Assembly: GCA_963281255.1 (NCBI GenBank) | Contig: OY725501.1 | Location: 4,007,674 to 4,071,673, forward strand | Reading direction: 5' to 3' | Source: Aphrocallistes beatrix | Lineage: Eukaryota > Porifera > Hexactinellida > Sceptrulophora > Aphrocallistidae | Length of the DNA stretch: 64,000 bases | Shown here: positions 102 through 35,341 of the stretch, piece by piece | How positions within the stretch are numbered: position 1 is the stretch's first letter | How the letters are laid out: each line of letters begins with the position of its first letter | The notes under the pieces: generated by a model | What the model saw: only the letters and a program-made list of their open reading frames with translations | Database searches by the model: none | What the model was told of the DNA's origin: nothing | Translations under genes and position numbers: made by a program

Positions 102-659
102 TTAGATCAGTGTAAGATCTATTTCGCCGCCTCCAGAAGGCAAGGGTACCCTAGGGCAAGCTTTGTTGCTTTGGAATTCAAGCTGGTACTCAATTATCGG
201 GTTTTCACCAGTGTAAACTAAAGAGTCAGGAGTACCTCCAGATACACATTTCATCGTTACGTCACACTTCCTATCTCCTATACCAACTGCGGTTGAACCG
301 CCAGTATACCGTATTTTAAGATACGAATTTTCGCCGTCTAATTTCGCATCGATAACCTCGAATTTGCTAGTTTGTCCGAGTGAATAGTGTGTATCGTCTC
401 CTTTACTGAATTGGCATGCAGTGGCTGTGGTATCGCAATCATCTCCCCATGCTTCAGTAACCCCGCACGGATAAAAACGATATGTATCAGTGGTTGTATC
501 TACCTCGATATACGTCTTATTGTCGCTAGATTTATAGCCATGTAAGTCTATTCTAGCCCCATTTTCAAAGGTACAAGAACATACAGTCTCTTGTGTACAG
601 GGAGAAGCGCTCCCAGATAAATGTATAGCCAGGAACAACAGAAACACACTCAACAGCAT
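102..659 (-). CDS. Secreted MRH-domain protein, membrane-less paralogue of the M6P-receptor-like family
   Basis: Single-exon gene of 185 residues. A signal peptide ([19 protein letters not shown]) is followed by one MRH-type ectodomain with six main cysteines: an N-terminal Cys cluster, YRFYPC, DDC, TACQ, a Cys after GDRKCDVTM, and a final KAC. Gln of ACQ, Arg of GDRK, Glu of TGEN and Tyr of IEYQ sit where mannose-6-phosphate receptors carry their four sugar ligands. Unlike the paralogue at 4417-5214 it has no membrane span or tail: after the hinge PSGGG the frame runs into EIDLTLI and a stop. Aligned to that paralogue, the end corresponds to its last codons in another frame, so span and tail were lost by internal deletion. 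It is probably secreted. A TATA box (TATAAAA on the minus strand, near 688-695) lies about 30 bases upstream of the ATG. It lies just beyond the ST13 3' end. Ligand is inferred from homology only. Confidence 0.72.
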   Translation of the reverse strand: MLLSVFLLFLAIHLSGSASPCTQETVCSCTFENGARIDLHGYKSSDNKTYIEVDTTTDTYRFYPCGVTEAWGDDCDTTATACQFSKGDDTHYSLGQTSKFEVIDAKLDGENSYLKIRYTGGSTAVGIGDRKCDVTMKCVSGGTPDSLVYTGENPIIEYQLEFQSNKACPRVPLPSGGGEIDLTLI

Positions 660-1249
660 TGGACTAATGGATCAGTGTGTGTAGGAGTTTTATAGTCTCT
701 CGTGCTGTGCTGAGGAGATATTATGTTTCAGTCTCATGATATCTTATTAGGCTGTATGTCATATAGTGCAAGCAGGTGGTGGATGGAGGAGTAGCATAGG
801 ATTGACGAAACAGCTTTTGATTGGATAAATGGCGTTTAAAAATAGATATCGTGCGAAGTGTAAACTTGTGATCTTACAAGAGGTGTGGAAATGGGGATCT
901 TATTTGCTTGGGGTATACGCATCCCTCTCATAAAGTTTGTGAGACACGCACACCCGTGTAGTACACGTGTCGTTTCAAGGTAGCTACTTATCACTCCATG
1001 TTTCATGATAACTAGTGAGTGACAAGTGGCACATGGAGATAATAATTAACCTCAAGAATTCGATAATTCAGTAGACAGCCCCTCAACAGAGTAACTGACT
1101 GCGTAGATTCAGAACACAATACCTGTCATAGTTTGAATGAATTCCCAAGATTAAGCAAACAAAAACACAAATAAAAATACTGAAAAACAAGCTTATACAG
1201 CACAACCTATAAATAGAAATAGTATCTATAAATAGAAGAAAATACTGTT
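660..1249. repeat. Duplicated flank between two receptor paralogues
   Basis: No gene is seen here. The stretch holds the promoter of the 102-659 gene (minus-strand TATA near 690) and the 3' flank of the 1250-1816 gene. The sequence just left of each minus-strand stop (1-101, about 1152-1249 and 4322-4416) is nearly the same, including AAGCAAACAAAA and paired CTATAAATAG boxes. The promoter side of the three genes also matches. This marks recent segmental duplication of units of about 1.1 kb. Confidence 0.6.
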
Positions 1250-1816
1250 TTAGATCAGTGTAAGATCTATTTCGCCTCCTTCAGAAGGCTGGGACGGTGG
1301 AATAGGGCAAGCTTTGGTGCTTTGGAATTCAAACCGGAATTCAAGTGGCGGGAATTCACCTGAAAAAACTAGAAGATCACGATTACCTTTAGGTAGGCAT
1401 TCCATGGTAATATCACACTTCCTATCTCCTGAACCAGTATCAGGTGAACCGCCTGTATACTGTATTAGTAGATGCGAATTATCGCCGTCTAATTTAGCAT
1501 CGAGAACTTGGTATTTGTCAGTTTGTCCGAGTGAATAGTATGCTTTATCTCCTGGGATGTACTGGCATGCAGTGGCTGTGGTATCGCATCCACCATCCCC
1601 CCATGCTTCAGTAACTCCGCATGGATAAAGACGATATGCAGCAACCTCCCCTAAAGCTACTTCAAGATAAGTCTTATTGCCGCTAGATCTATAGCCATGT
1701 AAGTCTATTCTAGTTCCATTTTCAAAGGTACAAGAACATACAGTCTCTTGTGTACAGGGAGAAGCGCTCCGAGTTAGATGTATAGCTAGGAACAACAGAA
1801 ACACACTCAACAGCAT
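1250..1816 (-). CDS. Secreted MRH-domain protein, second membrane-less paralogue
   Basis: Single exon, 188 residues, sister of the 102-659 gene. The signal peptide is [19 protein letters not shown], followed by one MRH-type domain (YRLYPC, TACQ, GDRKCDITMEC, final KAC). The same deletion removes membrane span and tail, ending in GGEIDLTLI. Gln, Arg and Glu of the sugar-binding set are present, but the tyrosine ten residues before the last Cys is Phe (EFRFEF). That could weaken sugar binding, because this Tyr contacts mannose in characterised MRH domains. Hinge and ectodomain have diverged more than the signal peptide. A TATA box (minus TATAAAA, near 1845-1852) lies about 30 bases upstream. 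It is likely a secreted lectin-like or decoy product; function is inferred. Confidence 0.7.
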   Translation of the reverse strand: MLLSVFLLFLAIHLTRSASPCTQETVCSCTFENGTRIDLHGYRSSGNKTYLEVALGEVAAYRLYPCGVTEAWGDGGCDTTATACQYIPGDKAYYSLGQTDKYQVLDAKLDGDNSHLLIQYTGGSPDTGSGDRKCDITMECLPKGNRDLLVFSGEFPPLEFRFEFQSTKACPIPPSQPSEGGEIDLTLI

Positions 1817-2417
1817 TGGACTAATGGAGCAGTGTGTGTAGGAGTTTTATAGTCTCTCGTGCTGTGCTGAGGAGATATTATCTCTGTCCTAGGATTGAGG
1901 AAACAGCTTTTGATTGGATAAATGGCGTTTAAAAATAGATATCGGATGCATCATGAGTTGGAATCAAATGCTTCATTATATTTAGTGTTACGAAGTGTAA
2001 ACTTGTGATCTTACAAGTTGTGAAAAAGGGGATTTCATTTGCCTGGGGGCAGGGGGTATATGTACACACCCCCTCTCATAGTCCAACTTACCTGCTTTTA
2101 TTTACTTTTAATCAGAACACTATGGACACAATAGTCCACTCTTTGGAATTCGTATCAATTTGTGTTTACAAATGCACCTAGTGATTTTTTATAATCGTAT
2201 ATATAATCATAATGAATATATTAAGGACATTCGTAGCTATGGTTAGAACATTAACAGAAAAACAATTCCTTGAAGTAAACAAAAATAATAATAATAATAT
2301 AATTGATTTGCTAACACAAAACTTTAAAACTAACCGAAATGTTCGACTAATCGAGGAACTACTAAACACCTAACAACAATATTCAAAAATCTAAGTTACT
2401 CTAGGATGTGAAAAAGT
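1817..2417. other. Intergenic, ST13 3' flank
   Basis: The part nearest 1817 carries the promoter shared by the paralogue group. The rest, to the ST13 stop codon, is AT-rich (TAATAATAATA near 2287). A small minus-strand reading frame at 2178-2369 has low complexity and no recognisable protein features, so nothing coding is called. Confidence 0.5.
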
Positions 2418-5400
2418 CTAAGAGTCAGGACCCATGTCTCCCATGCCCCCCATACCACCCATGCCTCCCATACCACCCATGCCTCCCATGCCCCCCATAC
2501 CTCCCATGCCCCCCATACCACCCATGCCCCCCATACCACCCATACCTCCCAGTTTCTCTTGCATTTTCTGCATTGCTTTCATGACTTTAGGATTATTCGC
2601 GTATTTCGAAAGGTTGGAAGGGTTCTGTGCTGAATCCGTGAATGCGGCCATGACTTCCGGGTCCTTCATTAGCTCCACAAGCTCTGGGTCGTTAAAAATT
2701 TGTCCTAGGTCGGGACCACCTGGCATTGCGCCTCCTCCCATGCCTCCTCCCATACCACCTCCCATGCCACCTGAGGGCATTTGACTGGCCATTTCTTCGT
2801 CTGCCTTCTTTTGCTAAAAATAGCATTAAAATAAATTCATAGTAATGGAGGTAATAATTCCTAGATCAGTGGCTCCAAACTGGGATCCATGGCCCCTTAG
2901 TGGTCCACAGAATATTTCAGGGGGCCACAGGATTCGAAATTTTGCATTACGGTTAATAGGAGGGGTCAACAGAATACAGTAAAATAGGGGTATACAGCCA
3001 AAAAAGCTTGAAAACCGCTTCGATATATATCTTACTTACAAGTTCTCCATCCTCCCAAATCGTAACCACCATGAACTCAAGGGTAATTTAGTTGAAAATT
3101 AAGTGGTACATGTTTGAAACAATTTCGTTTAGGTTTACGAAAGGATTTTAAGACAATTCTTCCCACTCACAGCCTCATACTCTCTTTTCGCTCTCTTCAC
3201 TCTCTTCCTTCTCTGCTTTATTTCCTTTTCTCTGCCCTTTCTCTCTTGCTTCAGTCTGTGTTCTCGGATCCTGTCAGTTTTCTGCTTTATCTCTTTAAGC
3301 CAATCATTTGCCTAGGAAATCAACAATAACATCCTGTTCCGTATATAAATAGGGATTCATTCAAAGAAATTAATTCTGATACACTGAAATTAATCACAAT
3401 GACCCAAACTTGAAATCAGATTGGTTGACAAAAAAATGTTTAAAACGCAACTAAGCAAACGCCCTACGAGTCACTTAATGGAGTTGCTTTTCTGATTCGG
3501 TGGTAAATGCGAGTAAAATCAGTACAGTACACCCTCGCTTTTCTGAACCTCGCAAATCCGAACACGTCTCGTACAATCTGAACAGTCAAAATATAATCTT
3601 ATTCGCCTCTATGCTTTGAATAAACGTTTGTAATATTATATCTTTCAATAAGTTTGAGAATCCTAGTTAAAAAGCTGTTCGGATTAGCGGGGGTGTACTG
3701 TATTCTGCTCGCTACACAGATTCAACTCACGTCGTCGTCGTAATCCAGCTTGAGCGCAGTCTGCAGGTCCTTGGCTGCTTCTTCCCAGTGCGCCAGCATG
3801 ATGTGGGCCTTCCCGCGCCACTTGTACCCCTGTGCAGAGTCAGGGTTAAGCTTGATGGCCTGCGGAAGGATAATAATAAACACACATGCCTAGCACCACC
3901 AGATGCCACTGAATATAAAACAATCAGCAGCTAAAGCTGTATATATTAACTCCCCCCCAATCAGGTTATGCTACGATCCTATTCAAAGCGACCAATCAAC
4001 TTTTGGCCTACAAGGTGTTACAAATGGACACATGAAGAACTGGTGGGGGAAAAGTGAAAATTTTAAACTACAGTTGTCATCAGATAGAGTTATAATGAGA
4101 AGTCAAGAACGGTACTGTTACGTATTAAGGTGGACTAGAAATCAAGGATAAGGAAGAAACTAAAATTTCTACTGGACTAATACCCAATTCTAAGAAAGGT
4201 AGGGAACAGGAAAGTTCCTCCTTTCCTCCTCCTCGTACTATTAATAGAATAAATTAAGCTTGTAAAGCTGTTCCATTTACACATCATTTAATATATAAAC
4301 AAACTCCACTAAATACTACAAGATTAAGCAAACAAAAGCAGAAATAAAATACTGAAAAACAAGCTTATACAGCACAACCTATAAATAGAAATAGTATCTA
4401 CAAATAGAAGAAAGGGCTATTTTAGGCCGGTATAAGATTTAGTTCCGCCAATAAGGTCTCTCGCTTGAGGGAAACAAGAAAAAGTAAAGAGAAATCCATC
4501 TTTCAGCAAAAACGGAAAATCTTTCCAAAATTCGAAATTTGGAATTATTTCGAGACCCCTCGCTCCTTTCCAAACCACCATCAACAGAATCCCGACCACG
4601 AGATACGTCACGACGGCTAAAAATAGCACTACGATCAGTACTATAAATAGAACAGCGCCATTTGCGCCTCCTCCTCCTCCTCCTCCAGATGGCTGGGGAT
4701 TTGCATTAGGGCAAGCTTTGTTGCTTTGGAATTCAAGCTGGTACTCAATTATCGGGTTTTCACCAGTGTAAACTAAAGCATCAGGAGTACCTTCCGGTAC
4801 ACATTTCATCGTTACGTCACACTTCCTATCTCCTATACCAACTGCGGTTGAACCGCCTGTATACTGTATTTTAAGATACGAATTTTCGCCGTCTAATTTC
4901 GCTTCGAGAACCTCGAATTTGCTAGTTTGTCCGAGTGAATAGTGTGTATTGTCTCCTTTACTGAATTGGCATGCAGTGGCTGTGGTATCGCAATCATCCC
5001 CCCATGCTTCAGTAACTCCGCACGGATAAAAACGATAAGTATCAGTGGTTGTATCTACCTCGACATATTTCTTATTGTCGCTAGTTTCAAAACCACTCAG
5101 GTCAATTTTAGTCCCATTTTCAAAGGTACAAGAACATGCAGTATCTGATTTACAGGGAGAAGCGCTCCCAGATAAATGTATAGCTAGGAACAACAGAAAC
5201 ACACTCAACAGCATTGGACTAATGGATCAGTGTGTGTAGGAGTTTTATAGTCTCTCGTGCTGTGCTGAGGAGATATTATGTTTCAGTCTCATGATATATT
5301 ATTAGGCTGTATGTCATATAGTGCAAGCAGGTGGATGGAGGAGTAGCATAGGATTGACGAAACAGCTTTTGATTGGATAAGTGGCGTTTAAAAATAGATA

Positions 5401-8400
5401 TCGGATACATCATGAATTGAAATCAAATGAGTGTTTTTGTCAGTGGCATATTACTAAGTGTAAACTTGTGACTCTAAAAGAGAAGTGTGAAATTAATGGG
5501 GTTCAAACTGTATGCTTAAGTGATATGGACTAATCTATTAATAAAGTCTGCAAAAATCCTTTTGACTTTGATAATGATTACTGAAAAATCTATCTACAAA
5601 ATTTCAGAAATATATATTCCTATCGGTAGTGCATTCGAATGAATGCTTAGAACATAAATGTAGCATACACATTCTAAAAATAGAATATCTGGCGGGGATT
5701 GGATGAGGTTTGAATGAAAGATGTCAAAAATATTTTGATGATACTGGGAGTTTCAAAACTTTGTTTTTAAAAAAGTTTTTAAAGGAGCTCATTCTTTAGA
5801 CAGAAGCTAGCTAGCTGCTAATGAGACACTGTATTAGGCAGAAACCTATTTTTGAAGAGCAGCAAAGATTCAAAGATCAGTGACAAACTCCCCCATAAAT
5901 CAGTCCCACCAATATTCCTCTAAGTGTAATACAATCTAAATCGCATCATGTTTCTCACAATCGAAATTCAATAGTCTATAAATACTAAGCACAATGATAG
6001 TCTCACAAAAGTGTAATTACAATGATTTTTGCCATTATCAGTCTTATCTTGAATAGCTGCATACTTTGCTGTGAGTGCTTTAGATGCTGTTCCGCCTACC
6101 AAAGAATGAAGTGAGCTCCCAACACAAGAGCGGTTGTGATAATAGTAACAATGTGTTATGTTTAGTATATGCTGATATATATATTTATAAAAATCTGATT
6201 GTATTTGTTGTTTTTCTATCTTTGCCAATTGTGTAATGATTTGCTTTAATAAATATAAATATCTGAGTAGATAAAACTTTTCAAATAACAAACTTAAGAT
6301 TAAAAATCTATTCTAGAGGTCTAAATAAACTGCCCCCTGGGTATATTCGAACCCCCCTCCCGTTTGTTAAATTTCATATACGTATTGACTTTGAAATTTT
6401 TATCCAACACAACTTTTACTGATGTTTTGTATCAACTATTCCACCTAAATTATCTCGAACGTTGAATTCTAATCCTAGCTACGTTGTACTATGAAAAACA
6501 ATAATTATGTCCAACCCCCGTTTGATTATCATAATATAGAAAACTATATAACTCTATTAATAGAACAATTTTCCAGCACTTGAATAGCTATTAGCCTCCA
6601 CCTAGCCTTGGTGTCAGATAACCACATAGGAATTCAATCCATACTCCACTATAAATGTATGCATCTATGAAAAGATAGAATAATATAAATGAACTTGTTA
6701 ACAAAAGCCATTTTGTTCCTAAAAATAACGCTAATTCTAGCGCCGAATCCTAACTGCACAGTGGAGAGTTCATGCACCTGCGACCTGAAATCAGCTGGGT
6801 TGCTAAATTTAGCCGAAAGCTTCGATGGAGAAGATTTCGCCGAGATAGAAGGCAGTGACGGCTACACCTACCGGTACTACCCGTGCGGGATGAGACTCAA
6901 CTGGGGGATTCCGTGCAGTTACGAGAATTCGCCCATCGCTTGTCAGTACACTCAAACCGAATACTACGTTCTCGGTAAATCCACTAACTATAACATAACA
7001 ACAGCTGTGGCTGATGGGTACAAGACATACTTTGTTTTCCAGTTCTTCGATGGGACTTTTGATGCTTTGCTTGGGCCGCGCAAAGCAAATGTTAGGATTG
7101 AATGTGACACGACTGGTTCCAGCAATTTCCAATTCATTTCAGAAAGTCCGCACCTGACATATAACTTCCTTTTCAAGACAGAAAAAGCGTGTCTAATCCC
7201 TCCAAACAACGAGAGCGGATTGGCTATTTTTATAACCGTTATAGTGCTGATTCCAGTTCTAATAATAGCATATTTACTCATTGGAACTTCGGTGCTGTAC
7301 TTCAAGGGTGCCAGAGGACTAAAACTCATTCCAAATTTAGAATTCTGGAAAGATTCCCCTTTTTTGTTTATCGACGGGTTCCTATGCCTATTTTCCTGCA
7401 TACCAGCAGTCAGAGAGAGACTGAGGATAGTTGCACACCAAAATTATGAGAAAATATAAACAATAATTTAGTAGTGCATTCTTTTTATGTTTATTTGTTT
7501 GTTATTGAAACTATATTTGTTTACGAGTAGGAGCAGGATTTTATCACAAATAGAATGTAAGGGCGACAATAATACCCAAAATAGGAATCTATAGGATCAG
7601 GAGTATTTCGCCCTCAAAAGATATCAAGGAATGACAATAATTTAGGAAATTATTCGAACTAAAAGGTCTTTCTTACACAGTCAGGATTATTAGAAATCGT
7701 TACATTCGCTTATTTTTATTGGTGTTTCTTTAATAGCTAAATATTTTGACTAATATTATCTTCATGTTTAGTTATAATCATTGAAAATACAGTCGACTCT
7801 GCTTATTATGGTCACATCGGTCAGAGGACATTTTGCCCCGATTAAGCGGAGAACCTTAAAATATTTTGTATTACTAGCTTCTAAGTATGAGAGCTATTCC
7901 GGTCCTGCCTAAAGTGTCCTGATTGAGTGGTGAACCCGATTAACCAGTGGCCTATATTAGCGGAGTCGAATGTACATCAGGGTTGCCGTGGGAATGGAAT
8001 TTCAATTCCAATTCCCATCCCATTCCCACAGGATTTCTGTGGAAAATCCCACAGAAACCCACAGGAAATCCCACAGAAACTCACACAGAATCCGACAGGT
8101 AATCCTACAGATTCCCACATGTGGGAATTCCCATAGCCTTAAAATCATTCCCATCCCCACGGCAACCCTGATGTACTTTCATCTTGTTAATAGAAGCTAC
8201 GTCGCACGGACAACAGGCTCAGGAGTTAGGGAAGTATGCAACCCATAAAGTAAGCATGAGTACTATTATTAGTAACATCTACCGCGAGAGAGGTAATATG
8301 AGGGAGAGACAGTATTATTCTAAAATAGGCGGAAATTAGGAATCGATTGGTCATTGGGAATGTGACATAGTCACATGGCTTGCTACACTACAATAAACCA

Positions 8401-11400
8401 GAACTGTTCTAAATTTAGACTATGAGCTATAGTAGCAGTGTATCCAATGGAACTCAATACAGAGATATCTCATTACGTATAAATACAGAGGTGTAGGCTG
8501 TAATGGAGAGAAATGGGACTAAAGCATACACTAATAGTGGCAGTGGCACTGTGCCACTATCTGGTATCAATAGAAGCGGCAACAGTCGAGAAAGTGGGGG
8601 ACTGTGCCTGGGAGATTCAGGGCGTAACTTTAGATTTAAGCAAAGTCGACAATTCCATAACAATAACTGGTAACGATGGTTACCCATATCGATACTACCC
8701 GTGCAAAATAACTGAAACGTGGAAAGTGGATTGTACTCCAGCAACAAACGCTGCTATTTGCCAATTCGATCAGAATTTTAACCAAGCGGTAATCGTCGGG
8801 AAACTGAATTCTGCTACTACCACAGCTGTCGTAAATGAAAAAGCTGACACCGCTACCTTCACAGTGACATACGGAGGAGGAGACAGCCAAAGAAAAGGAA
8901 GTGTGACAGTAACATGCTTTCAGGAAAAAGATACACTGACCTTTGATTACGAGGATTACAGTTCAGGCACATACTACTTCAAGTTCGATGTCCAAAAAGC
9001 TTGTACGAGAGCATCATCGGGAGCAGCAAGTGCAGAACCAGCTGACGGAGCTGCGCTATTTATAACTCTGATAGTTGTCGTCATTGTGGCAGTGGCGGTG
9101 TACTTAGTGGCGGGGGTTTTACTGATGGCGTTCTGGAAGAAAGAGACGGGACTAAAACTTATTCCGAACTTAGAATTCTGGAAGGATTTTCCGTTTCTAC
9201 TCAAAGATGGATTCCTATTCACTTTCTCCTGTTTCCTGCCCCTCAGAGAAAAAATAGGACCAGATAAGGGGACCTACGAAAGTCTTAAATAAGTATTGGA
9301 CAAATATATTGGTTGTCTCACAGGATGGTTGTGTGTATATATAAATTATTCATTTATGTTGAATACTACTAACGATTATATTATTGTACTAAATAAGATG
9401 TTAACATGTCAGCGTAGTTAGTTATATACGACCGTAGCCACCGGTCCGGTTTGTCCGGTTTCAACCGGACCACTTCACACCTGGTGCTACGGCCTTGTTA
9501 TGTCAACCCTCTAATAAGACAGCGATTTTTCTTCATGAAACCAAAACCAAAAAATAAAAATAAAGTTCGCACTAACAACCGGACCAAAAGTCACATGGTC
9601 CGTTGCACTACATTAAATTAGAACTGTTCTAAATTTAGATTATGAGCTATTGTAGGTATGTGTCTATTCCACAAGATGCAACTCAATACAGAGATATCTC
9701 ATTACGTATAAATAGAGAGGTGTAGGCTGTAATGGAGAAAATGGGACTAAAGCATACACTCATAGTGGCAGTGACACTGTGCCACTATCTGGTGTCAATA
9801 GAAGCGGCAACAGCCAAGAAAGTGGGGGACTGTGCCTGGGAGAGTGACGGCATAACTTTAGATTTTAAAGATTTCACAGGGAAGTATCTAACAGTAACTG
9901 ATAACCTAGGTTTCGAGTATCGATATTACCCATGCAAGACTGAAACATGGAAGCTTGATTGTACCCAAGCATCCAACGCTGCGATCTGTCAAGACAATCC
10001 TCCTACGACAATGGTAATCGTCGGGAAACTGAATTCTGCTGATGTCACAGCTGTCGTAAATGAAAAAGCCAAGACCGCTACCTTCACAGTGACATACGGA
10101 GGAGGCACGCCTGTATTTGGAGGACTACCTAGAAACGAAATTGTGACAGTAACATGCTTTCAGTCAAAAGATGCATTAACTTTTGATCACGAAACTGCGA
10201 GTACAGGTCAATACTACTTCAAGTTCGATGTCCAAAAAGCTTGTACGAGAGCAACACCGGGAGCAGCAAGTGGAGGAGAAGCAGCTAATGGCGCTGCGCT
10301 ATTTATAACTCTGATAGTTGTCGTCATTGTGGCAGTGTCGGTGTACTTAGTGACGGGGATTTTGCTGATGGCGTTCTGGAAGAAAGAGAGAGGACTCAAA
10401 CTCATTCCGAACTTTGAATTCTGGAAGGATTTCCCGTTTCTACTCAAAGACGGATTCCTATTCACTTTCTCCTGTTTCCAGCCCCTCAGAGAAAAAATAG
10501 GACCAGATAAGGGGACCTACGAAAGTCTTAAATAAGTATTGGACAAATATCTTGGTTGTCTCATAGGATGGCTGTGTGTATATATAAATTTCTTTTATGT
10601 TGAATACTATTAACGATTATAATATTGTACTAAATAAGATGTTAGTTATACAACTAATAAATTTAATCTTCGTCATTGGGATAACAACTGCTTCCTCAGA
10701 TACAGAAGTATCAGTTGGCTTATTGCTAACCAGTTCAGTGTGACCATCCATTCACTAAGAACTAAATTCAGGTGGGACTCTGGAGTAGGGGCATGTGTTA
10801 AAGTTATGCCACAGCTACATTCTGATCGCTAGGTGGCGGGGGCCCACGTAAAATGGCTCAATATGGCGCCTATTTATTGGTATAATAAGGATTCCCTCCA
10901 GTATGGACACATTTTTGGGACTCAGAGTTCACCTCAAGATATTCTCTTCAATATTTAAATTGACTTTACAGATCGATTGAAGATTACAAACGCAAAGTGA
11001 CTAGTTTATCTCGCCACAAGACTTAGAAAAATGACTGTTATAACAGCCTACAGACAATTATAAGAGATTACCTCTATACCAGCCAGATTATGTTATTATC
11101 AGCATACAATCCCAAATTGATCGTGTCTTAATTTGGAACACGATACTATAAATAGTTCAGTACTCCAGCATAGGGATATCTCATTAATCTGATATAGAGA
11201 CAGATATAGGCTGAAATGGCAAAGATAAATTCCTATGTAGTTCTATTGTATCTAGGGATACTTTGCCATCAAGATGTTTTAATATTGAGCGAAAGGGTAA
11301 TTGAGTTGGGGGATTGTATGTGGGAAGCAGAGGAGAGCAAAACCAAATTGGATCTCAGCGTTCTTCCCAAATTCTTTCCAAGCGTCATTGACCCAATCAA

Positions 11401-14400: not shown

Positions 14401-17400
14401 GTTTGGGATTTGGATTTCGTTATTATGGTCTGATACGTACATCTTGTAAGATGGAATCTTAATATATAAAAGAATAGTTTTGATAAGAATAGTTTCGATT
14501 CAGGTGTGAAGACATATTAGAAATTTGAAAAACAAAAACTTATTTTAGGTATCAATTATTTCAAACAGCTCTCTTAACATGAGTCAATTAATATATCTGG
14601 AACTGGAACTATCCCTGGTCCTAGTGATGCTATTAGGCACAGGAATGGCCTCCATTGAGATGTGTCAGAAGGAGAGCAGCTGTTCTTGTGTGACAGATTC
14701 TAACCTGGTGACTGACCTATCAGATTTGAGAGCAGTCTACTTCTCAGTTTATGTGCGGGACAATTCAACGGTTTCAGAATACAGGTTAGATGGAGTTAAG
14801 GCATTAGTGATATTACGTTACCATCTTTGTTACTTGACACATTATTTCTATCGGAACAAAATTCGAAATACTAATTAATTAATAATTATTAACAATGACC
14901 TGGGGTCCATTCTATTTATAGCTTGGACCCCACATTTCTATGGCTTCCCCGCCCAAAATGACTGAGCAAGCAAAAATCATTGTCAATGAGGGGTAACTTA
15001 GCTATCAGAAAGCGTAATAATTTTTAGTGCTGGAAAAAGACTCAAATTAGTGACAGCAAAGAAAAATAGATTAAGTAATGATGCAAATTTCTAAAAATGA
15101 TCGGAATTGTGATCTTCCATCTGATCATTCAAATAAAAATAGTTGATCCTTATTCGATCGTAGGATTAAGGATCTGAGTAATCGCATTCTATAATTATCC
15201 TGGTGTTCTTATTATAGATACTATCCATGCGGCATACGTTCAGACTGGGATGCTGAAGTATGCACTAGAGAAAGTGGCGCTAGTGTCTGTCTAATGAAGA
15301 CAACTAATGGCAGAACAGAATTCACTGTGATTGGTCAAAAAGACAATTCAAAATTCGAAGTTGAATACAGAGAACCATACACAACTTTGCTGACATACAA
15401 ATACACACGGATCTACCTCATATGCTCACAAGGTGTTGAAATGCAAGGAGACACATTTAGTTTAGGATCAGATACTTATGGAATATATCACCAGTTTATT
15501 CTTGTCACGAACCATGCCTGTCCGACTTTAAGAGCTGAAAATAGAACCAACCACCCGGTGATATTCATTCTATTGTGCATATTTGGAGGAGTGGCCATAG
15601 TTACCTACTTGGTCTGTGGAATGTTTTATCAGATCTATGTTAAAGAAGCGAAAAAGTGGGAGATCTTTCCAAATTTAGGTTTCTGGAAAGAAACGCCGTT
15701 TTTGATCAAAGATGGATTCTTACTAGTTTTCTCCTGTTACAGACCATTCAGAGAATCGATTGGAAAATAATTTCACACCTTTATACACATATGGTTAACC
15801 ATAATCCAATGTTGTGTCTGGTAATCCTCATTAACTCACTGTTATTAGATTTTTTTATAATTCGTAGATCGAATCATTTCTGCTTATATGATGTAGAGCA
15901 GTGTTAACAGCAATGACTCCTTATTAATTAATAACCCGGAAAAACTTTATTATTATATGCTTACTCATTTCCGGTTTAAGCCATTTTTGGGCGGGAAAGC
16001 CATACAAATTTGTGGTCGTTACTATAAATAGAAATGACCCCAAGTTGTCCCCGGGTTAAGACTCCCATACACGATGTAACCATGTTGCAAGCAACAAGTT
16101 TAATGCAATAATTTTTCGTCGCTCAACAAGGTTGCACGAAAATAGAACAGTTCTATTCCCATGCTAATGTTGCAACTTTGTGCATTGTGTATGGGGGCCT
16201 ATACTGGTCTACAAGATCCAGAATTAATGGGAGACGACTAGATTATGGAATAATGCCATTGGAGGGCCAAAGGTTGAATATTGCTAGTCTAAAGTAATAA
16301 ATATTTGTATGGTTCCTGGTTACTCGCTAGCAATGCGTTGAATGCAAGCAACTGATTAATGGTATTATAGGTAATAAAAAATTAAGCTTCTCAGCTCTGA
16401 TAATTTCGCCCGATTTAGAAAGATTATTTTCATAATAACTTTAGTATTATTACTAGCAATAACAACAAAATTAAATATTAATGAGAACTTTAAGAGTAAA
16501 TGGTAGAGGAAAATCAGAACTCATTCTGTATCATTGTGTATCCTCCAGACTCAACACCAATAGCCCTTCTACAACGGGGGAAACAAGAAAATGTAAACAG
16601 AAACCCATCCAACACTAACTTTAGATACATAATCAGTGTAGGTAAGGGGCCCCAGCCTTTAGCATTGCGTTTCCATCTCCAAAACATTCCAATGGAGAAG
16701 AGTAAGGCAAAGTATAAGAGAGATAAAATGATAATCGTGACGAATAGATAACATGCACCAGGTTTTCCCAAGTTAAATCTAAAGTTCTGTGAGGGAGTAT
16801 AGCAAGCGGCTTGGCTTTTAAGTCTCAGCTGTATGTTGTCATGTTGTACTTGTAGGATTGTGAACTTATCTTCTCCACTCTCCTTGGCACATTCTAAATA
16901 TAATTCAGTCTTCATCTCACCGCTATGGAACTTGACCATGATGGAGTTATAGTCTATTGAATTTGGAACTAAGAACTCAGCTGATGCTTCGGTTCCCCAA
17001 CTTTGAATGTTGCGTCCATTCGTTGAGTGATTAGAGCAGACAGCGTTGTTGTCAGCTTTAGCGCAGCCTTTTCCCCAATTCTTTCCTTGCTCACACGGGA
17101 AAAATATGCAAAATATTCCTTTATCTATAACTGTGAAATTCTTCCCGGATAGACTGGATATATCCACTATTCCTCTCGAATGCTGGCACTTACAAGGAGA
17201 CAACTTGTTACAAGCATCCTTACTCCCATTGACAAGCAGGACGAAACTCAGTAAGCAAATAATTCTGCAGAAAATCATGAATAAGAATTACGATTTTGAG
17301 ATATGTTGCGCTCAACAAGTGTCAGATTAATCATAACAATATCTGAATACATATTCTATGTATGGTTGATTATAATTAGGATGCATAGGGAAGCTCTAAA

Positions 17401-20400
17401 TATATTATCACAAGATATTCTATAAATACATACTTCTATTGTGGTTATGTTAGTCCATAGTGTTAGACACATAAAAGTAAAGGTACAGTCTGCTCCATAA
17501 TATTGAATTCATAGTGCAGTAACATTAATCGAATAATTATATAACATACTCGTATCTGCTGATTTACTATGGTACCATGCAGAGTTCCTTTCAATCGATT
17601 CACAAACTCAAAATGAAGAATTATAAATATTCTATTGAGCTAAGGCATACATGGCAACTTGAGCCAAGATAAAAGCGGGATGCAATGGAAAAGTATTATA
17701 CGTACATATAATCAAAAAAAGCGGGACATAGTAGGGAAATTTCAAGTAAAAGCGGGACACTCGTGAAAATTAGCTCAATAGAAGAGCGAAAAAAGCGGGA
17801 CAGTTGGCAATTCGAGAATGCTCACATGTCGTATTTAACTATTTTTAGTATCTAATTTGAGTATCGTATTGCTTCGAATAAGCGCCCGGGCACTTATTTA
17901 TTTCGTGCACCCTTTAGACCCGGCGCTTATTCAAGCCCCGGCGCTGATTTTTTTTCATTCGCTATTTTGACCCCGCTCTTTTTTTTGTTTACTACATTGA
18001 ATGGCACTTTTGTTTTTGCCACAACTGAGAACTAAAATGCCCCGGCGTCCGGCGCTTATTCAAGCCCCGGCGCTGATTTTTTTTCATTCGCTATTTTGAC
18101 CCCGCTCTTTTTTTTGTTTACTACATTGAATGGCACTTTTGTTTTTGCCACAACTGAGAACTAAAATGCCCCGGCGTCCGGCGCTTATTCGAGCCCCGGC
18201 GCATATTCAAGCCCCGGCGCATATTCGAGCCCCGGCGCTTATTCAAGCCCCGGCGCTTATTCAGGGAAATACGGTATATCAAATTAGTACATCTTTCATA
18301 AGCAATTCTACACAGCAGCTTTAGTAATGATTTTCAACATTACAACATGAGTTGATGTTAAACCGAGATTGCACCATTTTAAGAATGGCGGACGATATAA
18401 CATTACTTGTTATTACATATATCTTAATCTTGTGATTGCTAAGATTATTCACATTGTGCAATATACTGCTACATGACATGGTTGAACTGATAGAGTTAAT
18501 TGGTTATTATTGTGTGGCGAATTCACTCGAGACTGATTTAGTACGTAATCTGTTTGGATCATTGAACTCAACCATATATGCCAACAGACATCTCTGCAGT
18601 CGAAACGATTAATCAACAGTTCCCACACCAATCTCTAGTTTTATAACTGAAAATTTGAAGAAAAATTTCAGATCCAGAATCTTGTTGAGAGAGGAAAAAC
18701 AAAAACTGCAGAATAAATACGTTAAATAGCACCTAAGAGGGAGTTAATCCCGCGATCTGATTAGTGTTTGAATACTTTGTTAAATGTCTTAGTTTCAGAC
18801 TATAATTATAACTTCTAAAAATAACTACAAGTACTTATGTAATAAATGTTTATCTAAAATTGAGAACAAATGAATGAAAGCGTTTAACAAATTTTAAAGT
18901 TAAATACATATTATTGTTCTTTAATTGCATGCAATAATGATAAGCAAGGTTGCAACCGAATAGCTAGACCAAATACTATTTGGCAAATAGTTGATATTCG
19001 GTTGGGAACCGAATATCAATCAGTATTCGTATTCGGTTAGAGTAGCCGAAAATTATCAGTATTCGTATTCGGTTCAGGAACTATTCATGAATACTGATAT
19101 TCGGTTCAATAGGTTTCAACCTTGATAATAAGGAATCAATTTGATAAATTTGCTATAATGGAATACAAGATCTAACAATGGTACCCAAGTTTATCTCCTG
19201 TGACTCCCAGGCAATCCCCTGAGGGCCTGCAATGACCTAAAGCAACAAATCTACAGGTCCTGCCGAACCTTCCAGGAGTCTAATGACCTGCCGGTGGGTC
19301 AGTGGCTACGCCCCAGCTGTGAGTTAAACCACAATCCCTATACTTTTCTTTTTAGGTTTTAAAACGTAAATATTGCAAAATCAATTTTTGATCAATTTTT
19401 GAAAAATATCCTTTTCTGTCTTAAAAGATTTGCTGGAAAGCATGTGCTTTTCAAATCAATCAAAGTGTCTATGAATGTGTCCGTTAATGTGCCATGTGGC
19501 AGTTTGTCTTCACGTAAAGACACCACAAACTTGAACTGAGAAAGTGGTACTAATTAAGGTTATTGTGTCGGTCAAATTAGCCAATGACTGACCTGGAACA
19601 TTATTCAGTATTACTTGAGTACTTTCTGTCTTCAGTCATGTTACGCTTACGTTATTCATCACAAATCAGGGAACTATTATTGCTGTGGGATATTACGTTG
19701 TAAATACATCCTAATTATAGACATTCCAACTTGTGAGTGTGGTATCTAATGGGCTAGCGAATTGTCTATAAAAGAGAGAATGTGCAACACTCTTCAACAA
19801 ACAAACTTCAAATCAACCAATCAAAATGAATTTCTACAAAATAATCTTCCTACTGAGCTGCATCCTACTCGCCAGTGGAACCAAAGAAGTGTGCCACAAG
19901 TTGTCCGACTGCAAATGCCAGCATTCGAAGGGAATCGTCGATCTGTCCAGTCTGTCCGGAAAGACATTCACAACTTCACATCAGGGAGTCACTTACACCT
20001 TTTTCCCGTGTCAGCAAGAAAAGGATTTGGGAGGAGACTGCAGCAAAGCTGGGAACAACGCCGTCTGCTCTCAGACTGGGACTACGGAGAACGGAGGCAG
20101 TGCTGAAACTTGGGGAACTGAAACTACCGCCGAGTTCTTAGTTCCAGATTCCACCAACTATGACATCATCATGGTCAAGTTCAGTGCTGACGGGAAGAAG
20201 TCAGACGTCCTCTTGGACTGTCCTAAGGAAGGAGAAGAAGGGAATGAGTTGGACTTCTTACAAGTACAAGGTGACAATCTCCAACTGAGACTGAAGAGCC
20301 CAGCTGCCTGCTACAAGCCTAGCTCCCCATCTCCCTCACCACACACGAAGACGACACATTCACCTCCAATAACAGACGAAGAAACAGTTCTCTCGACAAA

Positions 20401-23400
20401 ATCCAAAGAAGTGTGCCACAAGTTGTCCGACTGCAAATGCCAGCATTCGAAGGGAATCGTCGATCTGTCCAGTCTGTCCGGAAAGATGTTCACAGCTTCA
20501 CATCAGGGAGTCACTTACACCTTTTTCCCGTGTCAGCAAGAAAAGGATTTGGGAGGAGACTGCAGCAAAGCTGGGAACAACGCCGTCTGCTCTCAGACTG
20601 GGACTACGGAGAACGGAGGCAGTGCTGAAACTTGGGGAACTGAAACTACCTCCGAGTTCTTAGTTCCAGATTCCGGCAACTATGACATCGTCATGGTCAA
20701 GTTCAGTGCTGACGGGAAGAAGTCAGACGTCCTCTTGGACTGTCCTAAGGAAGGAGAAGAAGCGAATGAGTTGGACTTCCTACAAGTACAAGGTGACAAT
20801 CTCCAACTGAGACTGAAGAGCCCAGCTGCCTGCTACAAGCCCAGCTCTTCATCTCCCTCACCACACACGAAGACGACACATTCGACACCAACAACAAAGT
20901 CGAAAAGCAAGAAGACAACACCCTCAACTCGCATCCCTCCTCAGGCACCGGCAAACTTCGAGTTCGACTTGAGCAAGCTGGGTCACTGGTACCTGCTGGC
21001 CGGCTGTCTCAGCTTCATTTCTCTCTGCGTCCTCTCGTACGTCGCAGTGGGAGTGGCCTATCAGCGAAGGAACGGATCCAGCGGACTCGCTCTCGTGCCC
21101 AACCTCAGATTCTGGAAGAATTTTTGCGGACTGTTTGTGGATGGGTTTTTGTTTACTTTTTCTTGTTTTCCTACCTGCAGGAATTCCATCGGAGTCGGCA
21201 CAGGAGGCTATGTGCAGATTCAGAACATCTGATTTGTTTTTATTTACATTTTTGTTTCCTATTACCTCCTAGAGAACTCCATTCTTCACACTACTTTCAT
21301 TAGTCTATTGTGTGCATGTAACCCTCTCTCAATAATATCTCATCAGTAGTTTGTAATATGTGTTAGACTCTTTTGTTCAAAATTCCATTATTGAGTGTTA
21401 AGAATGGTTATTAAAGTTAACTTCTGTCTACTCTTAAAATTCTAGTCTATTCTTAAAATTTGAGCAAGAAAATATTTAAAATTCGGACTAATAACTGGCC
21501 CATTTAGTGATCTGTAACAGTCATTACATTTCTACGTTATTTATTAATCTGAAAATAGCAGGTTATTCACAAAGTGATGAATAGTAATTGTTAACAACTG
21601 AAAACACTTCGGATTCTTCGGTAAAAATGTATTAATTATATCTCAACACTCCAGGACATGCTTTTAATTAACACTTTTATGCAAAAAATATAAATTTTCG
21701 GATACAAAATTCAAATTGGAGTATTGATAAATATAATGTCTGATCTCTAACAAGAAATCTGATTTTAGATCTCTCAATTATTATCAAAAAAATTTAATCG
21801 TAAACTTCTAGCTGCTGAAAAATGTAATTTGTTAATCGAACTAAGATAGACGGTTACTTTATTTATAATAATTTTGGTTGAGCGTTGAGATTCTAATTAC
21901 AGTCAGGGTCGCTTAATATGAACATTCGTTTATTATGAACTAACTTCCTGGTCCCAATTTCATTTCTTAGATAGGATTTGTATTGAATTAAGTTTGCTTA
22001 ATATGAAGTATCTCTATTATGAACAGATTTTTTGGTCCTCTGGTGGTTCACAATAAGCGACCCTGACTGTAATACACTTTGACCAAAGACTAAGTGCTCT
22101 ACTGTTGTTACTATTCATCACTTTTTAAATAACAACGGTTATTTTCAGATTAACAAATAATGTAGAAATGCAACGATTGTTTTAGATCACAATAGGAGTC
22201 AGTTATTAGTCCGAATTCTAAACATTTTCTTACTCAAATTTTAATAATATACAAGTCAACATTAATTTAATAACCATTCTCAATACTGAATAAAGATATT
22301 TGTACAGTCTATAACACAGAAAGATATCTAAATGTACACTAGAGAGCATTAAAACTACTGATGAGTCATTGAGAGAGGGTTACATGCATACAAAAAACAA
22401 AAAATTAAAAGTAGTGTGAAGAACGGAGTTCTCTAGGAGGAAATAGGAAAACAAAAATGTAAATAAAACAAATCAGATGTTCTGAATCTGCACATAGCCT
22501 CCTGTGCCAACTCCAATGGAATTCCTGCAGGTAGGAAAACAAGAAAAAGTAAACAAAAACCCATCCACAAACAGTCCGCAAAAATTCTTCCAGAATCTGA
22601 GGTTGGGCACGAGAGCGAGTCCGCTGGATCCGTTCCTTCGCTGATAGGCCACTCCCACTGCGACGTACGAGAGGACGCAGAGAGAAATGAAGCTGAGACA
22701 GCCGGCCAGCAGGTACCAGTGACCCAGCTTGCTCAAGTCGAACTCGAAGTTTGCCGGCGCCTGAGGAGGGATGCGAGTTGAGGGTGTTGTCTTCTTGCTC
22801 TTCGACTTTGTTGTTGGTGTCGAAAGTGTTGTCTTCGTGTGTGGTGAGGGAGATGGGGAGCTAGGCTTGTAGCAGGCAGCTGGGCTTTTCAGTCTCAGTT
22901 GGAGATTGTCACCTTGCACTTGTAGGAAGTCCAACTCATTCTCTTCTTCTCCTTCCTTAGGACAGTCTAAGAGGACGTCTGACTTCCTCCCGTCAGCACT
23001 GAACTTGACCATGATGATGTCATAGTTGGTGGAATCTGGAACTAAGAACTCGGCGGTAGTTTCAGTTCCCCAAGTTTCTGCACTGCCTCCGTTCTCCGTA
23101 GTCCCAGTCTGAGAGCAGACGGCGTTGTTCCCAGCTTTGCTGCAGTCTCCTCCCAAATCCTTTTCTTGCTGACACGGGAAAAAGGTGTAAGTGATTCCCT
23201 GATGTGAAGCTGTGAACATCTTTCCAGAAAGACTGGACAGATCGACGATTCCCTTCGAATGCTGGCATTTGCAGTCGGACAACTTGTGACACACTTCTTT
23301 GGATTTTGTCGAGAGAGCTGTTTCTTCGTCTGTTATTGGAGGTGAATGTGTCGTCTTCGTGTGTGGTGTGGGAGATGGGGAGCTAGGCTTGTAGCAGGCA

Positions 23401-26400
23401 GCTGGGCTTTTCAGTCTCAGTTGGAGATTGTCACCTTGCACTTGTAGGAAGTCCAACTCATTCCCTTCTTCCCCTTCCTTAGGACAGTCCAAGAGGACGT
23501 CTGACTTCTTCCCGTCAGCACTGAACTTGACCATGATGATGCCATAGTTGGTGGAATCTGGAACTAAGAACTCGGCGGTAGTTTCAGTTCCCCAAGTTTC
23601 TGCACTGCCTCCGTTCTCCGTAGTCCCAGTCTGAGAGCAGACGGCGTTGTTCCCAGCTTTGCTGCAGTCTCCTCCCAAATCCTTTTCTTGCTGACACGGG
23701 AAAAAGGTGTAAGTGACTCCCTGATGTGAAGTTGTGAACATCTTTCCGGACAGACTGGACAGATCAACGATTCCCTTCGAATGCTGGCATTTGCAATCAG
23801 ACAACTTGTGACACACTTCTTTGGATTTTGTCGAGAGAGCTGTTTCCTTGTCTGTTATTAGAGGTGAATGTGTCGTCTTCGTGTGTGGCGAGGGAGATGG
23901 GGAGCTAGGCTTGTAGCAGGCAGCTGGGCTCTTCAGTCTCAGTTGGAGATTGTCACCTTGCACCTGTAGGAAGTCCAACTCATTCCCTTCTTCCCCTTCC
24001 TTAGGACAGTCCAAGAGGACGTCTGACTTCCTCCCGTCAGCACTGAACTTGACCATGATGATGTCATAGTTGGTGGAATCTGGAACTAAGAACTCGGCGG
24101 TAGTTTCAGTACCCCAAGTTTCAGCACTGCCTCCGTTCTCCGTAATCTCAGTCTGAGAGCAGACGGCGTTGTTCCCAGCTTTGCTGCAGTCTCCTCCCAA
24201 ATCCTTTTCTTGCTGACACGGGAAAAAGGTGTAAGTGACTCCCTGATGTGAAGTTGTGAACATCTTTCCGGACAGACTGGACAGATCTACGATTCCCTTC
24301 GAATGCTGGCATTTGCAGTCGGACAACTTGTGACACACTTCTTTGGATTTTGTCGAGAGAGCTGTTTCTTCGTCTGTTATTGGAGGTGAATGTGTCGTCT
24401 TCGTGTGTGGTGTGGGAGATGGGGAGCTAGGCTTGTAGCAGGCAGCTGGGCTTTTCAGTCTCAGTTGGAGATTGTCACCTTGCACTTGTAGGAAGTCCAA
24501 CTCATTCCCTTCTTCCCCTTCCTTAGGACAGTCCAAGAGGACGTCTGACTTCTTCCCGTCAGCACTGAACTTGACCATGATGATGCCATAGTTGGTGGAA
24601 TCTGGAACTAAGAACTCGGCTGTAGTTTCAGTTCCCCAAGTTTCAGCACTGCCTCCGTTCTCCGTAGTCCCAGTCTGAGAGCAGACGGCGTTGTTCCCAG
24701 CTTTGCTGCAGTCTCCTCCCAAATCCTTTTCTTGCTGACACGGGAAAAAGGTGTAAGTGACTCCCTGATGTGAAGTTGTGAACATCTTTCCGGACAGACT
24801 GGACAGATCGACGATTCCCTTCGAATGCTGGCATTTGCAGTCGGACAACTTGTGACACACTTCTTTGGTTCCACTGGCGAGTAGGATGCAGCTCAGTAGG
24901 AAGATTATTTTGTAGAAGTTCATCTTGATTGGTTGATTTGAAGTTTGTTTGTTGAAGAGTGTTGCACATTCTCTCTTTTATAGACAATTCGCTAGCCCAT
25001 TAGATACCACACTCACAAGTTGGAATGTCTATAATTAGGATGTATTTACAACGTAATATCCCACAGCAATAATAGTTCCCTGATTTGTGATGAATAACGT
25101 AAGCGTAACATTACTGAAGACAGAAAGTACTCAAGTAATACTGAATAATGTTCCAGGTCAGTCATTGGCTAATTTGACCGACACAATAACCTTAATTAGT
25201 TCCACTTTCTCAGTCCAGTTCGTTGCGTCTTCACGTGAAGATAAACTGCCACATGGCACATGAAAGGACACATTCATAGACACTTTGATTAACCACATAT
25301 ATTTCAATGACACGAAATTGTGTACATATAGTATTTATCGCATATTCGTGAGTTTTATACTATAATAAGAATATAATGTTGCTAAAATTTTCCCTCTGTC
25401 GATGATGGTATAGTGGCACTAAGGTTCCATACCTCGCATTTTCAAGGTACAGTCGAAACAGGTTTTTTCTAACTCCGGTTTATCCTTACTTATCCGTTTT
25501 TTCTTACTAATTCAGAATCTTAATTATGTAAAAAATTCCAAATCTATATAAATTTTCATCGGTTTCTCTTACTGTTTGAACCTGTAAAGAAATAGTAAGA
25601 AAAAAACGGTTTCGACTATATACGCACCATGTTCTTCTACAACAAAGTATTTAATCAATAGTGATTAATTATAAATCATTAATTAGAAGAATATTAAAAT
25701 ATTATTGAATTTGTGTTGAGTGGTGCTAGTTGCGAAATGGAATTGTCTTGCAAGGATTTATTTGCATAAACCAATTCGAGGTAATCGGGATGGATTGATT
25801 GGCTTTCTCTCTTCCAGAGTGAAGAATCTGTTCAATGCATCTTAATGAGAGATTACAATTAATTGAATAAATATTTAATCAGAATTTTGATTAATTAATA
25901 CTAGTAATTGATTGGTTAAAAGCATGAAAAAAGGATTTTGAGGGAAAATCAAAATTCCTTCCGAAAATTAGTTAAATTTCTGTATTTATGATTCATATCT
26001 AGAAAGGAGAATTCTTTGTGGCATAAACCATCCGTACGCGCGCTTTAGTTGTAAGAACCGCCTTAGTGCACCGAATAATATAACAAATAACTAACTCATT
26101 CATCCTAAAAATAACTAACTCATTCATCCAAAAACAAAGATCTTCTTATCAATTATTGTCTATTCTAGTCTTGATGGTGACAATGGCATTAATGATCCTA
26201 GAACTTATCAGGTTTTTAAGGGAGAGAAGGGGCAATTCCTCCCCCTGAACGTCTGAACAAGGCAACTGACACAACAGTTAATTTTACTCCTCCTAAATTC
26301 TCATAAATTTCAAATTGCCCCCATTGATTTTTTTCTGAAAAATCACTTTTTATTATTATAATCTTAAGTAAATACTCTGTTGCTCGCAATAACAAGGATA

Positions 26401-34810: not shown

Positions 34811-35341
34811 CTAATACCAACCAGCTCCCTTCATCCTGAGGAGCTGAGCTAGGTACACGTGGTAGCAGAACTGAATGAATGCGATTATGATGGAGAGGAG
34901 GAACCCTACGTACATGCTGAACACGTCCGTGATATCTGGCAGCTTGCTCATGTGCCAGAAAATAATCACGAGGATGTCTATGATGATGACAATGCCTAAG
35001 AGGCAGGTGGGGAATAGCAACAGAAACGCTGCAATGGCATGCGTCCATTTACTGTGTTTTAGGATAAGGACCGAGGCGGAAATGGAAATAATCGCCGCGA
35101 GCAGGTATCCACCGAAAAACCCGAGTGGAGCGGCTAAAATGAAATTTTGCTGGTTCATGCTATTTATAGTTCCTGGAGCAGAGAGTAGGCCTACTCTGGA
35201 AAGGAAAACTACAGAGAATGTCAGATGTAGGAAGGCCATGATTAGTCCTGGAACGAATGAGAAGGCGTTGATAACAGCGGAGATCTTCAGGAAGAGACTG
35301 CTGTCCTTCATTTCCTTCATTTCCTTCTTTTCAGAGTGCAT
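34811..35341 (-). CDS. Small four-span membrane protein, unrecognised
   Basis: Single exon, 176 residues. Charged N terminus (MHSEKKEMKEMKDSS), then four spans near 15-42, 66-92, 96-125 and 135-162 and a short C terminus ending MKGAGWY. The first loop is small with NSMNQQN. A CTATTTATAG decamer at about 35160 lies in the coding strand. Third of three same-strand membrane-protein genes; the plus-strand pair at 45083 and 46387 has the same layout. MARVEL-like or claudin-like topology is possible, but no signature residues support either. Function unknown. Confidence 0.6.
   Translation of the reverse strand: MHSEKKEMKEMKDSSLFLKISAVINAFSFVPGLIMAFLHLTFSVVFLSRVGLLSAPGTINSMNQQNFILAAPLGFFGGYLLAAIISISASVLILKHSKWTHAIAAFLLLFPTCLLGIVIIIDILVIIFWHMSKLPDITDVFSMYVGFLLSIIIAFIQFCYHVYLAQLLRMKGAGWY

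Follow-up and report, generated by a model that had tools for sequence, protein, structure and literature searches.

A tandem cluster of eleven MRH-domain genes, with and without a predicted sugar site, in the glass sponge Aphrocallistes beatrix

The window analyzed here was a 64,000-nt stretch of the Aphrocallistes beatrix genome (assembly GCA_963281255.1, contig OY725501.1, positions 4,007,674 to 4,071,673 of the forward strand). Positions 102–24923 of this window harbored eleven genes, numbered g1 to g11 in order, encoding proteins with mannose-6-phosphate receptor homology (MRH) domains; this bore out an earlier note on the same DNA, which had claimed at least eleven such loci in 25 kb. 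No further MRH copy was detected when the entire window and the 20 kb upstream of it were scanned for a narrow motif. The variety of forms described in that note (secreted and with one, two, and four domains) was recovered from open frames and alignment: two genes had no membrane anchor (g1 and g2), seven encoded anchored one-domain proteins (g3 to g9), and g10 and g11 encoded two and four domains, respectively. Ten of the eleven genes were single open frames, the exception being g8, which had a 433-bp GT-AG intron (14785–15217) and read EYR–YYPC across the splice. A TATA-like word was located within 150 bp before the ATG in 10/11 genes (within 70 bp in nine of these; none in g9), the chance of such a word being about 11% per 80 bp. 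The features are given below, where TM is the transmembrane span and the quartet is the set of sugar-site residues Gln, Arg, Glu, and Tyr, the last of which we take to be the fourth mannose-contact residue.

102..659, minus strand: g1, signal peptide plus one MRH domain, no span; quartet present (open reading frame, alignment); relative to g3, about 233 bp covering TM and tail are deleted
1250..1816, minus strand: g2, secreted, its deletion sharing the g1 junction; quartet with Phe in place of Tyr, the other three residues kept
4417..5214, minus strand: g3, signal peptide and MRH domain with complete quartet, then a Gly-rich stem, TM, and an FW tail ending in YTGL; its AlphaFold2 model resembles CI-MPR and CD-MPR
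4446..4678, minus strand: TM and tail segment of g3 that is absent from g1 and g2 (blastn gap, sequences)
6689..7459, plus strand: g4, single-MRH receptor with complete quartet, ending in YEKI
8513..9292, plus strand: g5, single-MRH receptor, quartet complete, C-terminal YESL
9732..10535, plus strand: g6, single-MRH receptor, tandem copy of g5, quartet complete, YESL
10249..10536, plus strand: TM and tail cassette of g6; identity to its g7 counterpart is 98.3%, and homology stops one base past the stop codon
11216..12013, plus strand: g7, highly divergent MRH ectodomain with g6-type TM and tail; quartet complete, YESL
11727..12014, plus strand: TM and tail cassette of g7, common to g6 (98.3%) and g5 (94.1%)
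14579..15770, plus strand: g8, two exons, receptor with one MRH domain that has lost the quartet; YxxPhi missing from the C-terminus, YRPF farther inside the tail
16514..17278, minus strand: g9, receptor with one MRH domain that has lost the quartet; FW motif degenerate; ends in YTMI; its AlphaFold2 model resembles MPR domains
19826..21232, plus strand: g10, a tandem pair of MRH domains without the quartet, Ser/Thr/Pro linkers, TM, and an FW tail ending in YVQI
22473..24923, minus strand: g11, four tandem MRH domains (174-aa unit); TM and tail protein sequence identical to g10; quartet lost
19458..20896, plus strand: arm in g10 of an inverted duplication whose other arm, 23853–25290 in g11, is 96.7% identical

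Signal-like N-termini, YYPC/FFPC, a C-terminal AC cysteine, one span, and a tail of the form PN..FWKD..L..DGF..SC were read directly from these proteins. The six-cysteine frame proposed in the earlier note was present as far as YYPC/FFPC and the AC cysteine were concerned, part of the N-terminal cysteines being missing from g5 to g7 and CQ from g8 to g11; the proposed single span and tail resembling the cation-dependent mannose-6-phosphate (M6P) receptor (CD-MPR) held for the anchored genes, both elements being missing from g1 and g2 and the FW part of the tail being degenerate in g9. The candidate that g1 and g2 were unfinished two-exon genes was rejected, as no TM or tail motif was found downstream and g3 continued the same DNA with a TM.

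By eye, the aligned quartet was complete in six of the eleven genes (g1, g3, g4, g5, g6, and g7), and three of its four residues were kept in g2 (Phe for Tyr). The g1 to g7 ectodomains shared 15 invariant columns, three of which were the quartet Gln, Arg, and Glu, and those of g4 to g7 were 26–31% identical to that of g3. The CD-MPR gene of the same genome, located on contig C17 (see below), had two extra cysteines near the Arg and Tyr sites, a pair found at those columns by eye in 0/11 cluster genes; the loop before Arg was shorter than in CD-MPR and variable in length among the cluster genes. In CD-MPR structures, this loop touches the phosphate and carries an extra disulfide. Because the C17-type cysteine pair is lacking and the loop before Arg is variable, g1 to g7 are expected to bind mannose-type rather than phosphomannose glycans. 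The glucosidase II MRH domain has been described as having an open site without such extensions and termed more prototypical (PMC4444583), while a figure legend in PMC7481795 prints the four essential residues as Gln, Arg, Glu, and Arg.

The fold was modeled for one gene per type (g3 and g9), and the other nine were only aligned. The AlphaFold2 model of g3 had pLDDT values of 72–95 in the ectodomain (blocks of ten residues; whole mean, 74.6), and a Foldseek search against PDB returned domains of the cation-independent receptor (CI-MPR) and CD-MPR first (2kva: E 2.6e-8, TM-score by target 0.70), with 56 structure matches at E ≤0.001. The model of g9 (mean pLDDT 70.6, 0 residues at ≥90) likewise matched MPR domains first (E 3.8e-6), with 21 matches at E ≤0.001. 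An unrelated fold, the outcome named earlier as refuting, was not seen in either of these two genes, and the models support a predicted MRH beta-barrel in g3 and g9. A profile of nine cluster rows (A1) matched CI-MPR at E 4.1e-23, and profile comparison of the g9 to g11 with the g1 to g7 ectodomains gave 95.7% probability.

The Pfam scan covered the ten open frames, g8 being covered by whole-genome profile searches (second exon); for ATG27, such a search yielded a match in 1/14 control genomes and none above cut-off. Three outcomes were observed: (i) g3 to g7 passed the cut-offs of both ATG27 (PF09451) and Man-6-P_recep (PF02157) with the ATG27 score higher in each (slightly in g4; 90.3 vs 48.1 bits in g3, which also passed the CIMR [PF00878] cut-off), and g8 exon 2 exceeded both cut-offs as well; (ii) g1 matched ATG27 below cut-off and Man-6-P_recep not at all, while g10 and g11 matched Man-6-P_recep below cut-off in the tail part only, had no ATG27 match, and showed further sub-cut-off matches to unrelated families, e.g., DUF7568; and (iii) g2 and g9 matched none of ATG27, Man-6-P_recep, and CIMR. 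The profile check suggested earlier was thus positive for g3 to g7 and g8 exon 2 and gave sub-cut-off matches or none for the other five genes, and the M6P-receptor-like identity, upheld by MRH fold and CD-MPR-like tail, needs refining in that the profile scores of g3 to g7 lean to ATG27.

Compared to known systems, the cluster showed the following likenesses and differences: (i) it shared with CD-MPR (M6PR, PF02157) a single MRH domain, one span, and a short tail GxxG..xP..FW..L..DG but included secreted and multi-domain forms, and an acidic di-leucine end was not noticed when the cluster tails were read; (ii) ATG27 was the higher-scoring family not only for g3 to g7 but also for relatives on contigs C2, C12, and C4, whereas the family was expanded here, g1 to g7 carried a lectin-type quartet (a candidate difference), and the relative on C1 scored higher with Man-6-P_recep (54.2 vs 47.1); and (iii) g10 and g11 had tandem MRH domains as in the CI-MPR/IGF2R repeats, but these were two and four mutually near-identical domains, and the genome had its own CI-MPR on C11. 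Only some MRH domains bind sugars (PMC4444583).

The cluster genes were then dissected into modules. g5 and g6 were a whole-unit duplication (84% over 1,066 columns). The part common to g6 and g7 was 288 bp long, running from stem to one base past the stop codon, with dS (synonymous divergence) of 0.015 and dN (nonsynonymous divergence) of 0.023 over 95 tail codons, while the ectodomains (147 codons) had 46% DNA identity and saturated dS; this anchor-and-tail sharing is cassette transfer or gene conversion. A near-identical donor of the g7 ectodomain elsewhere in the genome was sought and rejected, the best other match being 40%. g1 matched g3 at 90–98% in 5′ flank, signal peptide, ectodomain, and 3′ flank; it matched g2 at 76–93% in 5′ flank, signal peptide, and ectodomain and at 63% in 3′ flank. 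Since g1 and g2 lacked the TM and tail at the same short junction, yet g1 was closer to the TM-bearing g3, one deletion plus later conversion would explain the shared junction most simply. g10 and g11 were an inverted duplication extending over 1,439 alignment columns. Divergence of ectodomains, with anchor/tail cassettes copied between neighbors or deleted, is a pattern of modular evolution and suggests an expanded family of putative glycan receptors.

A C-terminal YxxPhi motif was identified in 8/9 anchored genes (YTGL, YEKI, YESL in three, YTMI, and YVQI in two), and YxxPhi motifs occurred also in relatives on C1 (YNDM), C12 (YAQI), and C2 (YNRI). Reading of the tails by eye recognized sorting-type motifs only and no signaling motif. 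In yeast, localization of Atg27p to the vacuolar membrane has been reported to require AP-3 as well as a tyrosine motif (YSAV) at the C-terminus (PMC8008256).

The nuclear genome (100.5 Mb, 28 contigs) contained separate genes of M6P-related families: (i) a multi-exon CD-MPR at C17:518631–518756 (107.9 bits with PF02157 and 22.3 with ATG27 after hand splicing); (ii) a CI-MPR at C11:185642–191932 matched over 13 stretches, of which one contains a stop; (iii) one Stealth_CR2 (GNPTAB-type) frame at C16:3548160–3548480; and (iv) one NAGPA-type frame at C7:1780325–1780906. The latter two are, going by their Pfam families, presumably the M6P-tagging enzymes. Two receptors and GNPTAB-type and NAGPA-type frames, all from M6P-pathway families, are hereby placed in a glass sponge, and the cluster therefore exists in addition to its M6P receptors. 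These separate genes are consistent with the earlier note's proposal of a role beyond lysosomal enzyme sorting; the defense and self-recognition variants of that role received no direct support.

Relatives outside the cluster, whose counts are lower bounds, included single-frame relatives on C1, C12, and C14 (that on C14 had a short tail without FW motif and reached no Pfam family), an ATG27-like gene on C4 (L058:1400–2792, plus strand), an intron-bearing relative of about seven exons at C2:36.4–38.6 kb, and partial copies at C2:7508125 and C3:1911338 consisting of 5′ flank and start of g5-like and g10-like genes. The frame preceding the C4 gene read by eye like another MRH stretch. The C2 gene and the C17 CD-MPR had by eye a common phase-0 intron just before the tail DG, and the C2 exon junction read FRSAK, close to ERSAR of C17; this shared intron position and phase supports common descent of the tails. 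An intron common to g8 and the C2 relative was considered and rejected, the two lying in different places.

The tree comprised 15 rows (C17, C4, four g10/g11 domains, and the short C2:7508125 copy were left out), and the C2 protein used in it and in the Pfam scan had two surplus residues at one exon junction. Firm groups were g5 to g7 (support 98/98), g1 to g3 (99/99), and g9 to g11 (100/100); less firm were g1 to g4 plus C1 and C14 (82/92) and g9 to g11 plus C12 and the C2 gene (86/82), so that certain genes from outside the cluster seem to fall among its members. The trees were weak in their deep part and did not resolve the order of expansion. The proposed lineage-specific expansion holds as an expansion within this genome, the term "lineage-specific" being based on copies of one genome.

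We lean, at slightly better than even confidence, toward a CD-MPR/ATG27-derived tandem MRH family with g1 to g7 as mannose-glycan endosomal receptors or lectins and g8 to g11 as non-lectin derivatives. This reading starts from what was observed (the fold in two models, the quartet kept in some genes and lost in others, the motifs of the tails, the shared cassettes, the deletion common to g1 and g2, and the separate M6P-family genes) and extends by inference to sugar binding, trafficking route, cargo, and benefit. A CD-MPR/ATG27-type ancestor would have expanded into a tandem MRH receptor family in a glass sponge; g1 and g2 might act as soluble secreted lectins, while g3 to g7 would bind glycoproteins that carry mannose along the secretory or endocytic route, cycle between Golgi, cell surface, and endosomes by means of FW tail and C-terminal YxxPhi, and deliver bound glycoproteins or microbial glycans to lysosomes; g8 to g11, keeping fold and tail without the sugar site, probably bind protein or other ligands. 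In such a locus, which exists alongside genes of M6P-pathway families, the MRH scaffold has multiplied and its modules have been rearranged, some genes keeping the sugar site and others lacking it. It may provide a natural series in which to study the gain and loss of ligands by lectin receptors, and it bears on whether MRH proteins function outside lysosomal sorting.

Several observations weigh against this reading. The quartet was by eye absent from g8 to g11 (two g11 domains retained an Arg), and one function for all eleven genes is therefore unlikely. Identity to solved MRH domains was low (about 20% for g3), g3 alone found CI-MPR in PDB sequences at no better than E 0.0099, and the g9 sequence alone had no match in PDB sequences. 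YxxPhi is a short motif, contained in 7–15% of shuffled tails per gene; the genes with it are kin rather than independent observations, and the sole match in g8, YRPF, lay away from the C-terminus. Ectodomain dN/dS ratios were 0.64 for g1/g2, 0.50 for g1/g3, 0.67 for g2/g3, and 0.76 for g5/g6, with all intervals reaching above 1, and were thus indistinguishable from 1.

These ratios would fit weak constraint and favor the alternative that a sorting receptor of ATG27/CD-MPR type was duplicated in the ordinary way, for dosage or tissue-specific use, while several copies decayed neutrally; the mosaicism would then be no more than routine gene conversion between tandem duplicates. The partial family copies on C2 and C3 favor it too, as does the 80.32-Mb genome of A. 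vastus, for which 12,409 transcripts with a single exon and non-syntenic genes in tandem clusters have been reported (PMC10282587). Gln, Arg, and Glu, however, were invariant across seven strongly diverged ectodomains, frames stayed open where neutral simulation kept only 0.6–9% of them (g1, g2, and g5; 14–30% for g10/g11, where the test is weak), and the last 111 codons of g10/g11 had dN 0 at dS 0.053, so that this alternative is judged rather unlikely. Together with point dN/dS of 0.00–0.48 over 15 domain pairs (computed as point values), the unchanged tail makes g10/g11 look constrained; the g5/g6 tail gave dN/dS 0.41 (interval, 0.16–1.14). It is very improbable that near-identical copies (g10/g11 or g1/g3) are partly an assembly artefact, with two haplotypes side by side: the high identity and inverted arrangement of g10/g11 would suit it, but these two differ in domain number and are inverted within one contig, and g1, g2, and g3 diverge by 7–25%.

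Another alternative, which we consider rather unlikely, is a polymorphic glycan or self/non-self locus (microbe binding, allorecognition) whose ectodomains would have diversified and been exchanged on common anchors, with loss of the anchor yielding soluble decoys. It would account for the cassette mosaicism, the soluble g1 and g2, and ectodomains far more diverged than tails, and a tandem, mostly single-exon AIG1-domain expansion in A. vastus has been linked to immunity by its authors (PMC10282587). Neither positive selection nor neutrality, however, was shown for the g1 to g7 ectodomains by pairwise dN/dS, the low g10/g11 ratios run counter to it, and so do tails with sorting-type motifs only. 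The cluster may have a defense or self/non-self recognition role; the boldest version of this view, a recombining glycan-recognition complex whose MRH ectodomains would diversify, swap on a common cassette, and be released upon cassette loss to form a microbe or non-self repertoire, appears quite unlikely. We know of no MRH-based recognition repertoire of this kind, although literature searches do not establish absence. Such an MRH expansion was not recognized in the titles and abstract openings, covered in part, of literature on MPR, MRH, and ATG27 in sponges and other animals, and the word "mannose" is absent from the main text of the glass sponge genome papers PMC10282587 and PMC10280926.

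Codon usage was also inspected in COX1 on contig C28 (17,996 bp). It contained 14 TGA and 0 TGG codons; of its 42 ATA codons, many fell on conserved Ile positions, and those examined among its 16 AGA codons stood at Ser, Gly, Ala, or Asn of other animals. This usage points to the glass sponge mitochondrial code, hexactinellid mitochondria being described as reading AGR as Ser, using AUA heavily for Ile, and having almost no UGG (PMC2267718). A demosponge or cnidarian host was rejected on account of AGA at Ser/Gly sites, ATA at Ile sites, and the lack of TGG in COX1. Glass sponge genomes are reported as small (about 61 Mb in O. minuta; PMC10280926) and rich in single-exon genes (PMC10282587, PMC10280926).

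Further elements in and around the cluster were as follows: an overlapping 159-bp repeat pair (98% identical, 129-bp offset) at 17920–18207 of the window; an open frame of 1041 aa immediately upstream of the cluster, containing an OTU protease domain (L009:4754–7876, plus strand); nearly identical (by eye) multi-span-like proteins in opposite orientation flanking the cluster (window 34811–35359, minus strand, and L010:8150–8689, plus strand); an open 369-aa mariner-type transposase frame with HTH_48, Transposase_1, and DDE_3 (window 39180–40286, minus strand); a 946-aa single-frame, NLR-like NACHT protein (window 41404–44241, plus strand); and two tandem single-frame tetraspanin genes (window 48528–51103, plus strand).

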